From: Acidisphaera sp. S103
Lineage (GTDB): Bacteria > Pseudomonadota > Alphaproteobacteria > Acetobacterales > Acetobacteraceae
Assembly (NCBI RefSeq): GCF_009765975.1
Contig: NZ_LMUJ01000042.1
Coordinates: 90,268 to 154,267, forward strand
Reading direction: 5' to 3'
DNA length: 64,000 bases
A model generated the notes under the pieces. The model saw only the letters and a program-made list of their open reading frames with translations, was not told the DNA's origin and did no database searches. The position numbers and the translations under genes were made by a program. Positions 19,743 to 62,242 of the stretch are shown in pieces (position 1 is the stretch's first letter; each line of letters begins with the position of its first letter).

Positions 19743-22367
19743 GTGGACGATCTGCTTGCCGATTTCCTGACCGAGACAAATGAAAGCCTGGCTGAACTGG
19801 ACGTCGCGCTGCTGACGCTGGAACGCACGCCGGACGACGCCGAGACCCTCGGCTTTATTTTCCGCCTGGTGCATACGATCAAGGGTACCTGCGGCTTTCT
19901 GGGCCTGCCACGGTTGGAACGCGTGGCCCACGCCGGTGAGAACGTACTGGGCAAGTTGCGCGACCGCACCCTGACCGTCACCCCCGACATCGTCACCCAA
20001 GTGCTCGCGGGGATCGACCAGATCAAGGCGATCGTTTCCCACCTGAGCACCACCGGCGCCGAACCGGCGGGCGACGACACGGACCTGATCGCCGCGCTGA
20101 ACCGCGTCGCGTCCCTTGACGCGCCCCCCGCGAAAAAGGCGCCCGTCACCCTCCCGGCCGCAGCCCAGCCGCCACCGGAACCCGCGCAAATAGAGGCGCC
20201 CCCCGAACTTGTCCCGGTCGAGATCATCCCGCCCACCGCGCCCACCCCCGCTGCGACCGCACTCCAGGCACAGCCGCAACCGCCGACACTGCCCAACGCC
20301 CCCGCGAACACGCAAACCATCCGCGTGACCGTCGATGTGCTCGAAGACCTGATGACCCTGGTCAGCGAGCTTGTCCTGACCCGCAACCAGCTTCTGCAAC
20401 TTGCTCGGAACCAGGAAAACAGCGGCTTCACCGTGCCGCTGCAGCGGCTGTCGCACATCACCTCCGACCTGCAGGAGGGGGTGATGAAGACCCGCATGCA
20501 GCCGATCGGCAACGCCTGGAACAAACTGCCCCGGCTGGTGCGCGACCTGTCCCACGAAATGGGCAAGAAGATCGAGCTGACCATGCTGGGCGCCGAGACC
20601 GAACTCGACCGGCAGGTGCTGGAGCTCATCAAGGACCCGCTGACCCACATGGTCCGCAACAGCGGCGACCACGGGCTGGAAACCCCGGCGGAGCGGCGGG
20701 CGGCGGGCAAGCCGGAAACCGGCACCATCGTGCTGAACGCCTACCACGAAGGCGGCTACATCATCCTGGAGATCTCCGACGACGGACGCGGCCTGGCGGT
20801 GGACCGCATCCGCGCCAAGGCGCTGGCCAACGGGCTGGCGACCGAGGCCGAACTCGCCGCCATGACCGACAGCCAGATCCAGCGTTTCATCTTCCGAGCC
20901 GGCCTGTCGACGGCGCAGACGATCTCCGCCGTGTCGGGCCGGGGTGTCGGCATGGACGTGGTGAAGACCAATATCGAGAAGATCGGCGGCACTATCGAAC
21001 TGAAGAGCACCCCCGGCCAGGGCACGATGTTCACGGTCAAGATCCCGCTGACCCTGGCCATCGTCTCCGCGCTGATCGTGGAATCCGGCAAGGAACGCTT
21101 CGCCATCCCGCAGCTCAGCGTGGTGGAACTGGTCCGGGCGCAGCGCGACTCCGGCCGGAACACCAACGAAGGCACCGGCAACAGCGTCATCGAGCGCATC
21201 AACGACACCCCTGTGCTGCGCCTGCGCAATCGCCTGCTGCCGCTGGTCAGCCTGACCGAACTGCTGGCCCTGGGCGTCGAGGACACCGCCGAATCGGCCG
21301 CCCACGTCGTCGTGGCGCAGGTCGGCGCACATATGATGGGCATCATCGTCGACCGCGTCTTCGACACCGAGGAAATCGTCGTCAAGCCGGTCGCCCCCAT
21401 CCTGCGCCACGTCACCATGTTCAGCGGCAACACCATCCTGGGCGACGGTTCGGTCATCATGATCCTGGACCCGAACGGTATCGCCCGGGCGAGCGGCGTG
21501 GGCGCCGGGTCGGAGAACCGGCTGCTCCGCGCCAACAGCGCCGATACCCAGACCTCCGCCGACAAGACCGCGATGCTACTGTTCCGGGCTGGGGAAAGCC
21601 GGCGCATGGGCGTCCCGCTGGGCCTCGTTGCCCGCCTGGAGGACATCCCGCGTGAGAAGATCGAGATCTCCTGCGGCATGCCGGTGACCCAGTACCGCGG
21701 CAAGCTGATGCCGCTGATCGCCATCGACGGCGGCATCGACCAGCAGAAGCCGACTCAGCCATTGCTGGTGTTCGCCGAGGGCGACCGCATCATGGGCCTG
21801 ATGGTCGACGAGATCATCGACGTCGTGGAGGACCGCCTGGACATCGAACTGGCCGGCGCCCGCGCGGGCCTGCTGGGAACCGCGGTGATCGGCGGCCAGG
21901 CGACCGACGTGCTGGATACCGGCTACTGGCTGATGCAGGCTTGGCAGGACTGGTTCCGCGGCGTCCCGAGGCAAGGCGCCGCCGCCGGCCAGAAGCACGT
22001 CCTGCTGGTGGACGACAGCGAGTTCTTCCGCCAGCTGATGATGCCGACCCTGGGCGCCGCCGGCTTCCGCGTCACCGCGGTGGGCAGCGCGGCCGAAGCC
22101 CTGCGGCTCCGCGACGCCGGGACCATGTTCGACGCCATCGTCTCCGACATCGAGATGCCGGAGATGGACGGGATCCAGTTCTGCCGAACCGTCCGCGCCG
22201 GCGGGCCGTGGGCCGCGCTGCCCATGCTCGCCATGACAGCGCATTCCGACATGGAGACCGCACGCCTGGGCCGCGAAGCCGGCTTCACCGACTACGTCGC
22301 CAAGTTTGAGCGTGAGGTGCTGGTCGCCAGCCTCCGCAACACGCTCGTTGAGACGGTCGCGGCGTGA
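19743..22367 (+). CDS. cheA: CheA-type hybrid histidine kinase with C-terminal receiver
   Basis: Chemosensory histidine kinase of 874 residues. Domains in order: P1 histidine phosphotransfer domain (about 1-110; H44 in VHTIKGTCGFL), a Pro/Ala-rich linker without an obvious P2 domain (about 120-195), a dimerisation domain, a GHKL ATPase (DPLTHMVRNSGDHGLE, then DDGRGL), a CheW-like P5 domain, a second CheW-like segment (about 610-740), and a receiver (VLLVDDSEFFRQ, with the phospho-acceptor in SDIEMPEMDG near residue 801). The GTG start follows GAGGGGG by six bases. The receiver suggests an internal phosphorelay or phosphate sink, as in alternative or developmental Che systems. Confidence 0.93.
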   Translation: MDDLLADFLTETNESLAELDVALLTLERTPDDAETLGFIFRLVHTIKGTCGFLGLPRLERVAHAGENVLGKLRDRTLTVTPDIVTQVLAGIDQIKAIVSHLSTTGAEPAGDDTDLIAALNRVASLDAPPAKKAPVTLPAAAQPPPEPAQIEAPPELVPVEIIPPTAPTPAATALQAQPQPPTLPNAPANTQTIRVTVDVLEDLMTLVSELVLTRNQLLQLARNQENSGFTVPLQRLSHITSDLQEGVMKTRMQPIGNAWNKLPRLVRDLSHEMGKKIELTMLGAETELDRQVLELIKDPLTHMVRNSGDHGLETPAERRAAGKPETGTIVLNAYHEGGYIILEISDDGRGLAVDRIRAKALANGLATEAELAAMTDSQIQRFIFRAGLSTAQTISAVSGRGVGMDVVKTNIEKIGGTIELKSTPGQGTMFTVKIPLTLAIVSALIVESGKERFAIPQLSVVELVRAQRDSGRNTNEGTGNSVIERINDTPVLRLRNRLLPLVSLTELLALGVEDTAESAAHVVVAQVGAHMMGIIVDRVFDTEEIVVKPVAPILRHVTMFSGNTILGDGSVIMILDPNGIARASGVGAGSENRLLRANSADTQTSADKTAMLLFRAGESRRMGVPLGLVARLEDIPREKIEISCGMPVTQYRGKLMPLIAIDGGIDQQKPTQPLLVFAEGDRIMGLMVDEIIDVVEDRLDIELAGARAGLLGTAVIGGQATDVLDTGYWLMQAWQDWFRGVPRQGAAAGQKHVLLVDDSEFFRQLMMPTLGAAGFRVTAVGSAAEALRLRDAGTMFDAIVSDIEMPEMDGIQFCRTVRAGGPWAALPMLAMTAHSDMETARLGREAGFTDYVAKFEREVLVASLRNTLVETVAA

Positions 22368-22445
22368 CCCCATTCCCGCGGAGACATCCCCGCGTGACCC
22401 CAACCGCGCGGACCCACCTCCGCGGGACCACGGAAAGGACCAGCC

Positions 22446-34489: not shown

Positions 34490-34799
34490 TCAGCGCCGCG
34501 CCGGCGGCTGCTGCTCGTCCTTCCATTGATGCGCGGTCTCGGTGGCGTGCCGGTCCGAGGCCGGAGTTCCGGTCCGAGGCCGGAGTTCCGGTCGGACGCT
34601 CGTCTATCGACCGTTCATGCGACGGCCGATCCGGCCGTCCGACACCGGTGATTCCGGAGTTGGCCGGCGGATCGCTGGCCGGGAAGCTGTCTTCCACGGT
34701 CTTGTCGTGTTTCCCGTTGCCTGGCTGTCCCGTCTGCTTCAGGCTCATCCGTTTCGCGCCCATCCGATTCGCGCCCATCCGATTCGCGATTGTCGGCAT
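34490..34799 (-). pseudogene. Small DSFPASDPP-type protein, frame broken by a 19-bp duplication
   Basis: Small acidic protein of the alphaproteobacterial type with the motif VEDSFPASDPPANSGITG. AAAGGA lies before the ATG, and the N-terminus has three near-copies of a five-residue MGANR unit. In the sequence as given, two copies of a 19-bp unit shift the frame; reading then runs on to 34254, into the TRAP gene start. Removing one copy gives a 96-residue protein with a soluble, charged C-terminus (DRHATETAHQWKDEQQPP) and a stop at 34490. I take the restored form as ancestral. The function of this family is unknown. Confidence 0.55.
34551..34588. repeat. Perfect 19-bp tandem duplication inside a small gene
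   Basis: Two perfect adjacent copies of CGGTCCGAGGCCGGAGTTC, followed by the first five bases of a third. The unit is not a multiple of three, so it shifts the frame of the small DSFPASDPP protein. A gain or loss by slippage would switch the C-terminus. Confidence 0.95.
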
Positions 34800-58297: not shown

Positions 58298-59599
58298 ATG
58301 GTGCTGATGGGTGCCCTTCGCGCGGCGTTGCGACCGCGCCAAATGGACACACAGGTTCGGGTGGCTCGTGAGCGCTATCGCATGATCGTCGAAAGCGCGA
58401 TCGACTACGCGATCTTCACCTGTGGGCTGGACGGCCGGATCACCAGTTGGAATGCCGGCGCGCAGGCCATCCTCGGCTACGCCCCGGAAGACATCGTCGG
58501 CGAACCATGCGCCCGCGTCTTCATGGCGGACGATATCGTCGCCCATGTCCCCGAGACGGAAATGCGAGCCGCCCGGGACGGCATCAGTGTTCGCGCCGAA
58601 CGCTGGCACCACCGCCGCGACGGCACCCGCTTCTGGTCCAGCGGCCGCATGCTGGCATTGCGCGACTCACAGGGGCAGGTCATCGGATACCTGAAAATCC
58701 TCTACGACCGTTCGGTCGAGAAAGACGCCCGCGACGCGCTGGAAGCGCTGAACGCCGAACTGGAGGACCGCGTCACCGAACGGACACTCGCCCTCGCCGC
58801 GGCCAACGAGAAGCTTCGCGCCGAGATCCTGGAGCGGGAGCGGGTGGGGGATCAGATCCGCCAGTCGCAGAAAATGGAGGTGATCGGTCAGCTAACCGGC
58901 GGGATCGCCCACGACTTCAACAATTTGCTGACGGCGATCCTGGGTGCTTTGGAAGTGACCCGCCGCCGGATCGACGACACCCGCAATCTGCGGCTGATCG
59001 ACAGCGCGATCAACGCCGCCCAGCGCGGCGCCAAGCTGATCGCGCAGCTCGTGGCCTTCGCCCGGAAGCAGAACCTGCAGGTGGCGTATCTATCGGTGAA
59101 CACGTTGGTGGAGGACATGCGGGAGTTGCTGGAACGCAGCGCCGGTTCCTCGGTCAGCGTGGTGTTTGATCTGGCGGACGACCTCTGGCCGGTGATGGCG
59201 GACGCCAGCCAGATGCAGACGGGTTTGCTGAACCTGGCGTTCAACGCGCGCGATGCCATGCCGAATGGTGGCACGTTGCGGATCGGCAGTGCCAACATCC
59301 ACGTTGAGATGGCCGAGTCGGACCTGACGGTGGGCGACTACGTGACCTTGTTGGTGCAGGACAATGGGACCGGCATGCCCAAGGATGTCCAAGCCCGGCT
59401 GTTCGAGCCGTTCTTCACCACCAAAGACGTCGGCAAGGGCACCGGCCTGGGACTGGCACAGGTCTATGGCTTCGTCCGCCAGTCCGGCGGCACCGTCCGG
59501 GTGGACAGCGCGGTCGGTGAAGGGACGACGATTACGATCCTGCTGCCGCGCTCGGCCGATATCGAGGGAGATGGTGAGCGCGTGATTGCCCCGGGTTAG
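58298..59599 (+). CDS. PAS-domain sensor histidine kinase
   Basis: Cytoplasmic sensor kinase of 433 residues, without a membrane helix. N-terminal PAS domain (about 25-145: [25 protein letters not shown] and the [16 protein letters not shown] part), a coiled coil (about 145-195), a phospho-acceptor helix with [16 protein letters not shown] (the His), and a GHKL ATPase with [17 protein letters not shown] and [11 protein letters not shown]. The PAS sequence resembles those of FixL-like or light-sensing kinases, but no ligand residue is diagnostic. There is no receiver at the C-terminus and no response regulator adjacent, so it is an orphan. The stop overlaps the restored end of the converging SPASM gene. 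Confidence 0.9.
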
Positions 59600-59698
59600 G
59601 CCGCCTGCCAGAAATGTTTCGCCGGCCCGACGCTGTACGACTTCGCGCGGTCGCAGGTCTTGCACAATGACTTGCGGGAAAAAGTCGGATCCATGTTC
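59596..59698 (-). pseudogene. Displaced C-terminal end of the radical SAM/SPASM gene
   Basis: If one copy of the 19-bp duplication is removed, the upstream frame continues here as ISENMDPTFSRKSLCKTC and on to a TAA at 59596. This adds the final CxxC of a SPASM cluster and ends four bases into the converging kinase gene's stop. In the sequence as given, the segment is out of frame and not translated. Confidence 0.75.
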
Positions 59699-60496
59699 TC
59701 ACTGATCAGTCGCGCCAACCCGGATCAGTCGCGCCAACCCGCCGGAAGCATACATCTCGTAGTACTCATGTTCGAGCAGGTTGCCGATCTTGTGTTTCAG
59801 CGAATAGTCCATGCAGCACAGCACGACGTCGCCGTTCGGCAGGATGACGTTCTGGTCGTAGAACGGGGTGAAGCTGCACGTTACCGCGCCGTGCCGCTCC
59901 GGCATGTCCAGGATGGCCTGTCCCGGCACCGCCGCCGATCCGACATTGCCGGCTCTTGTGTGGCCGACCCAGGCGCCCAACTGGATGCCCAGGTGATCGA
60001 GGTCCTGGTGCGGCTTGCCGCCAGCGTCCATCGTCATGACCTCGAACCGCGGCAAGATGCCGGACAAGCCGAGCTTGATGAAGGCGATCAGGTTGGCTTC
60101 GTAGACCGGGTTGTATTTCCAGCCGCGCATGTTGCCGTTGCGGTCGGGCAGATGCAGGCACATGACCTCGACCTGCGCGGCGTGGGTTCGGATCAGTTCG
60201 GCGACGGTTTCGGCGTCCTCGGCCTCCATGCCGTACAGCGTCGTGTAGATCGCCATGCTGTAGCCGGCTTCGAGCGTGTGGCGCAGCATCGCGGTGGCGT
60301 CGGGGTTCGCCCAGGGTTCGGCCATGCCGGAAAAATCGATCCGCACGTGTTTCGGCACCTTGCCCAGCACCGTCTTGAAGTCGTCCAGGGAGAAATACTT
60401 GGTGTTCTTGCCGTACAGCCCGCGCAGCGTGTCCTGCGGGCAGAACGTGCATTTCAGCGGGCAGCCAACCATCAGGGTGAATTCGAGCGATGGCAT
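59699..60496 (-). CDS. Radical SAM/SPASM protein, C-terminus truncated by duplication
   Basis: Radical SAM enzyme of 265 residues as it stands. The SAM cluster motif GCPLKCTFCPQD (C12, C16, C19) and FSGMAEPWANPD are intact. The SPASM region begins with VTCSFTPFYDQ and ILPNGDVVLCCMDY, and IGNLLEHEYYEMYASG follows. A 19-bp tandem duplication shifts the frame right after GGLARLI, so the chain ends at VGATDQ and loses the last CxxC. The restored gene would code for about 293 residues. Its neighbour on the other side is a GT2-methyltransferase fusion, divergent by about 147 bases, which suggests a shared role in sugar or peptide surface modification. Confidence 0.8.
   Translation of the reverse strand: MPSLEFTLMVGCPLKCTFCPQDTLRGLYGKNTKYFSLDDFKTVLGKVPKHVRIDFSGMAEPWANPDATAMLRHTLEAGYSMAIYTTLYGMEAEDAETVAELIRTHAAQVEVMCLHLPDRNGNMRGWKYNPVYEANLIAFIKLGLSGILPRFEVMTMDAGGKPHQDLDHLGIQLGAWVGHTRAGNVGSAAVPGQAILDMPERHGAVTCSFTPFYDQNVILPNGDVVLCCMDYSLKHKIGNLLEHEYYEMYASGGLARLIRVGATDQ
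59704..59741. repeat. Perfect 19-bp tandem duplication in the SPASM gene
   Basis: Two exact adjacent copies of GATCAGTCGCGCCAACCCG. The unit is not a multiple of three and shifts the minus-strand gene out of frame. Loss of one copy restores a conserved Fe-S cluster segment. Confidence 0.97.
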
Positions 60497-60643
60497 CGGT
60501 GTCGTCTCCTGACCGCCGGGTGGCGAACGGGCGCCGTTCTACGACCGATTGGTTGCCAAGCCGTTAACGCGCCGCCGGCCGCATACGTTAGCGATGCGTT
60601 AACTTTTCCCGGGCAGGGTTCACCGTGTGTAACGGAGAGCCCA

Positions 60644-62242
60644 GTGCCCCATCGTCATCGCCCGTCGGGCCAGCCGCGTGTCATCGGCCTGACCATGGTC
60701 AAGAACGAGCAGGACATCATCGAGCCGATGCTGCGGCACAACGCCGCGCTGCTGGATGCTCTGATCGTGCTCGACAACGGATCGGTGGACGACACGCGCG
60801 TGATCGCCCTGGCCCTGGCGCGCGAGTTGGGCAACGTCGTGGTCACCGACAGCGCCCAGTTCGGCTACACTCAGGGCGAGCGCATGACCCGGCTGCTGCA
60901 CACCGCCCAGAGCGCCTATTTCGCTGATTTCGTGCTGTTCCTGGATGCGGACGAATTCATCGGCGCCACCAGCCGTCCGGCCTTTCAGGTGGAACTGGAG
61001 AAGATCCCGTCCGGCGGCTTCGGCGCCATCGCCTGGCGCAACTACGTGCTGGCCGACGATGCCAAGATCACCGATCCGCCGCGCGGGCTGGAACACCGCC
61101 GCCAAGTCGAGGCGCTGCCCGCCTACAAGACTGTCCTGCGGCTCGACGGCGTGTTCTGCCCCGACCTTGTGGTCAACCGGGGCAGCCACGCCGTGACCCG
61201 AGCAGGTGAGGCCCTGCCGGGCGTTTTGCTGCCGGACCTGCCGTTGTGGCATTTCCCGATCCGCGGCCATGCGCAACTGACCGCCAAGGCGCTTGTGGGA
61301 TGGCTCGCCTGCTTGGCGGCCAATCCGCGTGCGGCCGAGACCGTGCAGTCCCATCACTGGCATGGCATGTACCGGCGCATCGTGGATGGATCGGGCTTCG
61401 ATGGCGGCGACCTGCGCACGCTGTCGCTGCACTATGCCGATCCCAGCTACACCCTGGGCCTGACCCACCCGCCGGATCCGCCCATCCTGCACGATCCGCC
61501 GGCGATCGACACGGAACGCCGTTACTCCACCGGTGCGTTCCTCGATCCCCTGGTGCTGGTCGCCCGTTCGTGGGAGGAAACGTTGCGTGCCCGCGACCCG
61601 CTGTTCATGCCGGATGAAATTCCGGGGACAGTGATCGATATTCCCCCGTTCCGGTTCCTGGCGGAGAAGCATCAGCCGGCGTCGATCCTGGATGTCGGCT
61701 GCGGCATCGGCCTGGACCTGGAGCTGTTCGGCCGCCTAGGCATCACCGACATTGCCGGCGTCGGCCCCCTGCCCCGCGAGGCGCTGGTGCTGCGCCAGGG
61801 CGGCTATGTCAGCCATGACCCCACGGTCGGCTTCATCCTGGGCCGGCAATACGCCCTGGTGCTGTGCCTGAACACCGTATCAGCCCTGCCGCCGGACGAT
61901 GCCGCCGCACTGATCGGCAATGTCGACCGCCACGCCGAAGCGATGGTCGCGTTTTCCCTGGACGATCCGGCCGCCGAGATGTTGGACACATGGCTGGAAC
62001 GATGGCGCCGAGCGGGTTGGGGTCCCGATCTGCTGGAGACCCAGGCGCTGCGGTGTCTGAGTTCGTCCGCCACGCTGCGTCGGGGCCTGGTGATCCTGCG
62101 GCGCGGCGTCGGCGCTGATGAAACCGAAGAACTGCTGGCGATCGCCCGCCGCCCGTTCCGGATGCCTCCGTTCGCCCCCGGCGTGCATGAGGAACCGCTG
62201 CTGGACCCGGCCGAACGCAGTTGGATGGGCTACGCCGCCTGA
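60644..62242 (+). CDS. GT2 glycosyltransferase fused to SAM methyltransferase
   Basis: Fusion protein of 532 residues. N-terminal GT2-type domain (about 10-290: VIGLTMVKNEQDII, VLDNGSVDDT, the DxD in LFLDADEF, and LWHFPIRGHAQ with the late acceptor region). A linker leads to a class I methyltransferase (about 335-490: ILDVGCGIGLDLELFG, then YALVLCLNTVSALP). The GTG start has GGAG six bases upstream, which fixes it; an open frame far upstream is not coding. It starts 147 bases from the divergent SPASM gene. It may make and then methylate a surface sugar. Confidence 0.88.
   Translation: MPHRHRPSGQPRVIGLTMVKNEQDIIEPMLRHNAALLDALIVLDNGSVDDTRVIALALARELGNVVVTDSAQFGYTQGERMTRLLHTAQSAYFADFVLFLDADEFIGATSRPAFQVELEKIPSGGFGAIAWRNYVLADDAKITDPPRGLEHRRQVEALPAYKTVLRLDGVFCPDLVVNRGSHAVTRAGEALPGVLLPDLPLWHFPIRGHAQLTAKALVGWLACLAANPRAAETVQSHHWHGMYRRIVDGSGFDGGDLRTLSLHYADPSYTLGLTHPPDPPILHDPPAIDTERRYSTGAFLDPLVLVARSWEETLRARDPLFMPDEIPGTVIDIPPFRFLAEKHQPASILDVGCGIGLDLELFGRLGITDIAGVGPLPREALVLRQGGYVSHDPTVGFILGRQYALVLCLNTVSALPPDDAAALIGNVDRHAEAMVAFSLDDPAAEMLDTWLERWRRAGWGPDLLETQALRCLSSSATLRRGLVILRRGVGADETEELLAIARRPFRMPPFAPGVHEEPLLDPAERSWMGYAA

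Follow-up and report, generated by a model that had tools for sequence, protein, structure and literature searches.

The assembly of Acidisphaera sp. S103 (Rhodopila-like) contains an exact 19-bp tandem duplication that shifts the reading frame of a radical SAM gene. We consider it probable that the duplication arose recently and spontaneously in an accessory gene whose product is most likely inactive or unstable, making the gene an early pseudogene. Mechanistically, a tandem duplication that arose spontaneously toward the 3' end in this accessory, single-copy, Twitch-type gene would shift the frame and remove the last ~40 residues; the predicted product would keep the SAM-binding [4Fe-4S] motif and lose the CxxC that presumably supplies two of the four auxiliary-cluster cysteines, and the enzyme would then most likely be nonfunctional or unstable, as expected for an early-stage pseudogene. 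One genome of the species underlies the duplication finding. Coordinates below refer to the window, i.e., the whole stretch of 64,000 nucleotides that was analyzed.

The 19-bp repeat and its reading frames

Repeat detection and comparison with homologs place the two copies at 59704–59741 on the minus strand. Positions 59704–59722 are identical to 59723–59741, with 0 bases of additional identity on either flank, and the repeat-bearing gene has 19 bp more (1 mod 3) than its intact homologs. Frame 1 (59699–60496, minus strand), defined by its ORF and by Pfam matches, starts at 60496, encodes the CxxxCxxC motif together with the beginning of a SPASM/Twitch domain, and reaches a premature stop at 59699–59701 after 265 aa, with the C-terminal end GGLARLIRVGATDQ. 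The remainder of the gene lies out of frame (59596–59721, minus strand) as a 41-aa tail that holds the terminal CKTC and ends with a TAA at 59596–59598; its identity to homologs and its pN/pS mark it as the conserved C-terminus of the family. The tail frame is open from within whichever 19-bp copy the ribosome meets first, and its stop overlaps that of the converging ORF, the kinase gene that runs to 59599. Since both frames are open over the repeat, a ribosome might occasionally change frame there, so that some full-length product could still be made.

These observations agree with the original prediction on three points: that a 19-bp unit is present twice in the gene, without mismatches, that the two-copy frame truncates a gene of the radical SAM/SPASM family, and that a one-copy frame restores the last CxxC and runs to a TAA at the stop of the converging gene. 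The restored tail also matches the C-termini of intact homologs.

Homologs retain the C-terminal tail

A scan of genome contigs yielded seven loci (L008–L014). The two most similar come from Rhodopila MAGs, namely L008 from RYN_443 (86% identity) and L009 from genome G010 (76%), followed by L014 from Rhodoblastus acidophilus strain MO (67%) and by L010–L013 (50–54%). Together with three loci from the genome search (L006, L007 and L015) and two of the seven rhizobial plasmid matches (L118 and L119), these form an alignment of 12 homologs, which leaves out four weak partial matches (L016–L019). All 12 extend beyond the two-copy stop and carry the terminal CxxC, and the frame argument of the original prediction therefore holds. 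Homologs ending naturally at the two-copy stop would have spoken against that argument; none of the 12 does so, and every one keeps the tail fused. Taken as a separate piece, the tail frame of the window has 88% identity to L008, 72% to L009 and 55% to L014.

The 19-bp repeat is absent from all 12 homolog genes, and in 11 of them we found no exact tandem units of 8–60 bases. The exception is L007, where a 9-bp repeat that keeps the frame lies close to the corresponding end of the gene.

Domain class and predicted consequence of the truncation

The three cysteines of the CxxxCxxC motif (C12, C16 and C19) are invariant in 11 aligned sequences, that of the window included, which places the family in the radical SAM superfamily. 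The Pfam Radical_SAM match of the window product (E 7.6e-6, 26.6 bits) falls under the curated cut-off of 29.5. In the window product the Pfam SPASM match breaks off at profile position 46 of 67; in the three homologs scanned it reaches position 67. A sequence search of solved structures gave weak matches alone, to DesII (best E 0.038) and to a cytosylglucuronate decarboxylase, and all NCBIfam matches were far under their curated cut-offs, the best being to spiro-SPASM with 38 of 250 bits.

As outlined in PMC6231123, a full SPASM domain has two auxiliary clusters and the seven-cysteine motif CX9-15GX4C-gap-CX2CX5CX3C-gap-C, and a Twitch domain has one auxiliary cluster, with one cysteine before and one after a β-hairpin and two more past the next helix. 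In L008, in which the full motif was checked, CX14GX4C and CX2C are present and CX5CX3C-gap-C is absent. Since the later part of the motif is lacking, this is not a full SPASM domain and “Twitch” is the better label. Judging from their order in the sequence, the auxiliary-cluster ligands in L008 would be C207, C227 or C228, C272, and C275. The window product keeps the cysteines equivalent to C207 and C227/C228 and lacks the terminal CxxC, leaving it short of the Twitch cysteine set; the equivalents of C272 and C275, i.e., two of the four presumed ligands, are cut off. The family resembles the Twitch/SPASM enzymes BtrN, SkfB and anSME, as they are presented in PMC6231123, in its CxxxCxxC core, with CX14GX4C and the terminal CxxC present in L008. 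It differs from them in having the single-cluster cysteine set alone and, in the window product, in the loss of the terminal CxxC. A predicted structure of intact L008, based on an alignment of eight sequences, was dropped as a guide to ligand geometry because the SPASM region was poorly predicted (mean pLDDT 58.7 overall, <50 at 261–293).

Gene distribution and neighborhood

No second copy of the radical SAM gene was detected in the S103 genome at E 0.001. The frame is thus disrupted relative to intact homologs in a genome with no intact copy, as is characteristic of a pseudogene. Like frameshift pseudogenes, it combines one disruption of the frame with a coding sequence that is conserved in all other respects and with the lack of a second gene copy, but it appears to be a very young example in which decay is still invisible. 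The significance is mainly one of annotation, in that the gene is better described as a frameshifted copy than as a short SPASM variant.

The gene is sparsely distributed. Of the 33 genomes searched in the genus, 5 have it, S103 included, with two of the others above 50% identity and two of the five at 45–46%. The family sample gave 7 of 200 genomes at E 0.001, a count that includes S103, G010 and the four weak partial matches, and the class sample gave 1 of 385 at E 1e-20, which is S103 itself. The Rhodoblastus homolog (order Hyphomicrobiales), at 67% identity, is closer to the window gene than are those of genus members G007 and G027 (45–46%), although not closer than those of G023 and G010; its closeness relative to G007 and G027 suggests either gene transfer or old paralogs.

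The radical SAM gene is flanked by a converging PAS/HisKA/HATPase histidine kinase gene (58298–59599, plus strand) and a divergent glycosyltransferase-2 gene (60620–62242, plus strand). The start of the latter is placed near 60620 within an ORF that extends further upstream, and its C-terminal part looks methyltransferase-like by eye only. The order of divergent glycosyltransferase, radical SAM gene and kinase is syntenic between the window and L008, where the glycosyltransferase ortholog matches Pfam Glyco_tranf_2_4. The window kinase matches residues 117–535 of the L008 kinase, which has a receiver domain at 13–122; residues 1–116, covering that domain, have no counterpart beside the window kinase. 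In addition, L008 has an extra gene of 286 aa (L008:3985–4845) that separates the radical SAM gene from the kinase gene; it has no Pfam match and no match in the genome of the window or in G010. The lack of the 286-aa gene and of the receiver domain in the window would fit local decay, the alternative being gains in L008.

A glycosyltransferase gene adjoins the radical SAM gene in the window, L008, L009, L013 and L014. The neighbors at the G010 locus (L009) are other than those in the window and L008, and elsewhere the gene stands beside hydrogenase genes (Sinorhizobium, L118) or nif genes (Bradyrhizobium, L119). Because the neighbors vary among the loci whose flanking genes were examined (L008, L009, L013, L014, L118 and L119), we assign no pathway.

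Age of the frameshift

Over 40 codons of the tail, the window and L008 differ by 15 synonymous and 6 nonsynonymous changes (pN/pS 0.11); the corresponding figures for the body, over 258 codons, are 95.3 and 47.7 (pN/pS 0.15). By this comparison the tail is still under strong purifying selection, and the duplication is therefore either of recent origin or missing from the cell itself, i.e., an assembly error. The tail is looser than the body in the comparisons of the window with L009 (0.28 vs 0.20) and L014 (0.76 vs 0.41). The same holds among intact homologs (L008–L009, 0.32 vs 0.20; L008–L014, 0.71 vs 0.36; L009–L014, 0.43 vs 0.29), so the looseness is a property of the tail rather than of the window. 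Under a rough Poisson model in which the tail is given the rate of the body and the window branch is given half of the pair dS, the probability of the observed tail is 0.07 if it was neutral over 10% of the window branch and 0.009 if over 20%, which disfavors neutrality over at least 20% of the branch. Given the tail pN/pS against L008 and the repeat-free homologs, the duplication looks recent, as had been proposed, unless it is an error of assembly.

Alternative explanations

No decay is visible in the tail, so the duplication could exist solely in an assembly or a subclone. An assembly or consensus artifact, in which the cell itself carries a single copy and the gene is intact, is a possible although unlikely explanation that would account for the purifying selection on the tail. 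The assembly is gapped, with 42 N-runs in 1.51 Mb and contigs down to 270 bp, but the nearest N-run in the contig is ~60 kb from the site. We surveyed 1,905,682 bp of the 8,370,829-bp genome for exact tandem repeats with units of 11–300 and found 25, in 8 of which the unit length is not a multiple of 3. Contig C92 contains three of these 8 with period 19, and the remaining 1,573,036 bp contain no further case, a concentration that favors an artifact. Against it, neither of the other two 19-bp repeats resembles a broken gene by a crude test, as one sits within an open frame, close to the 5' limit, and the other lies beyond a frame's end. In sister genome G010, moreover, repeats with a unit not divisible by 3 have a comparable density (2, among 5 exact repeats in all, in 800,000 bp, vs 8 in 1.9 Mb). 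The survey thus gives no clear sign of a general artifact or mutator, and it cannot prove the radical SAM repeat real. It is most improbable that the gene encodes a shortened functional variant, either working without the auxiliary cluster or with its tail made separately from an ATG after the stop or by frameshifting. Such an ATG does lie in the tail frame directly after the stop, and the body is intact and conserved, but the tail is fused in all 12 aligned homologs and no slippery site was recognized by eye in the frame overlap.

The original prediction also proposed that the duplication may be reversible by slippage and act as an on/off or activity switch. The switch is not supported, and we regard a phase-variable locus, in which one and two copies interconvert by slippage at a useful rate and toggle the last domain of the enzyme, as very unlikely. 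Spontaneous duplications in pneumococcal capsule genes reportedly control phase variation (Waite et al. 2001 and 2003). Spontaneous tandem duplications of this kind are described for the type 3 locus, cap8E and tts (PMC4022640, PMC4921036, PMC13410964), and the account in PMC4022640 links capsule gene duplications to the control of phase variation. The reversible agr mutants described in PMC6686034 involve a poly(A) tract and a duplication combined with an inversion, and were set aside as a precedent. The likeness to the capsule genes is that a short tandem duplication within an ORF shuts a gene off and is reversible in principle; the difference is that phase variation is reported there, whereas here the gene encodes a radical SAM protein and the duplication is known from one genome. 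In favor of a switch, an exact frameshifting repeat can in principle revert, and a glycosyltransferase gene adjoins the radical SAM gene at the five loci named above. However, a repeat at a phase-variable locus would be expected to recur there in relatives, and the 19-bp unit recurs in 0 of 12, the in-frame 9-bp repeat of L007 being the only one near that end. Moreover, there are two copies only rather than an array, and the gene is rare, sparse within the genus and without a conserved neighborhood. Reversion for insertions of ≤9 bp is put at ≤ ~1e-5 in PMC4022640; a 19-bp unit might revert faster. Passive reversion by slippage is possible in principle, and a selected switch is unlikely. It is more doubtful still that a one-copy fraction of cells makes the full enzyme with its auxiliary cluster and, with the divergent glycosyltransferase, tunes cell-surface sugar modification. 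If mixed alleles existed, this would be a case of a radical SAM enzyme controlled by slippage.

Tandem repeats elsewhere in the genome

In three Markov simulations of the 332,646-bp contig, exact tandem repeats never reached a unit length of 12; one simulation produced two 11-mers. Among the 8 repeats with units not divisible by 3, that in the radical SAM gene is the only one for which homologs demonstrate a cut gene, the other seven having been assessed solely from open frames and codon composition. A coding-like frame is open across four of these seven (C92 124817, C93 13232, C110 308951 and C104 215417). The repeat at C92 324147 lies just beyond the 3' end of a frame, and those at C110 33711 and 51828 lie 5 and 20 bases upstream of the 5' limit of a frame, where 5' truncation is possible. 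A genome-wide signature of 19-bp duplication was considered and dropped, since three of eight repeats, all in C92, are too few.

Several other repeats were observed in the window and its contig. At window positions 34550–34593 a second exact 19-bp unit is present in 2.3 copies, close to where an open frame on the minus strand has its 5' limit. Close to it, at 34746–34788, is a 15-bp tandem repeat (2.9 copies, 96% matches), and an imperfect 30-bp tandem repeat (2.3 copies) occupies 22362–22429. Outside the window, also in contig C92, a dispersed repeat of ~43 bp (L036:4121–4163), within which a 19-bp tandem repeat begins, has 13 further genomic matches at E 0.001.
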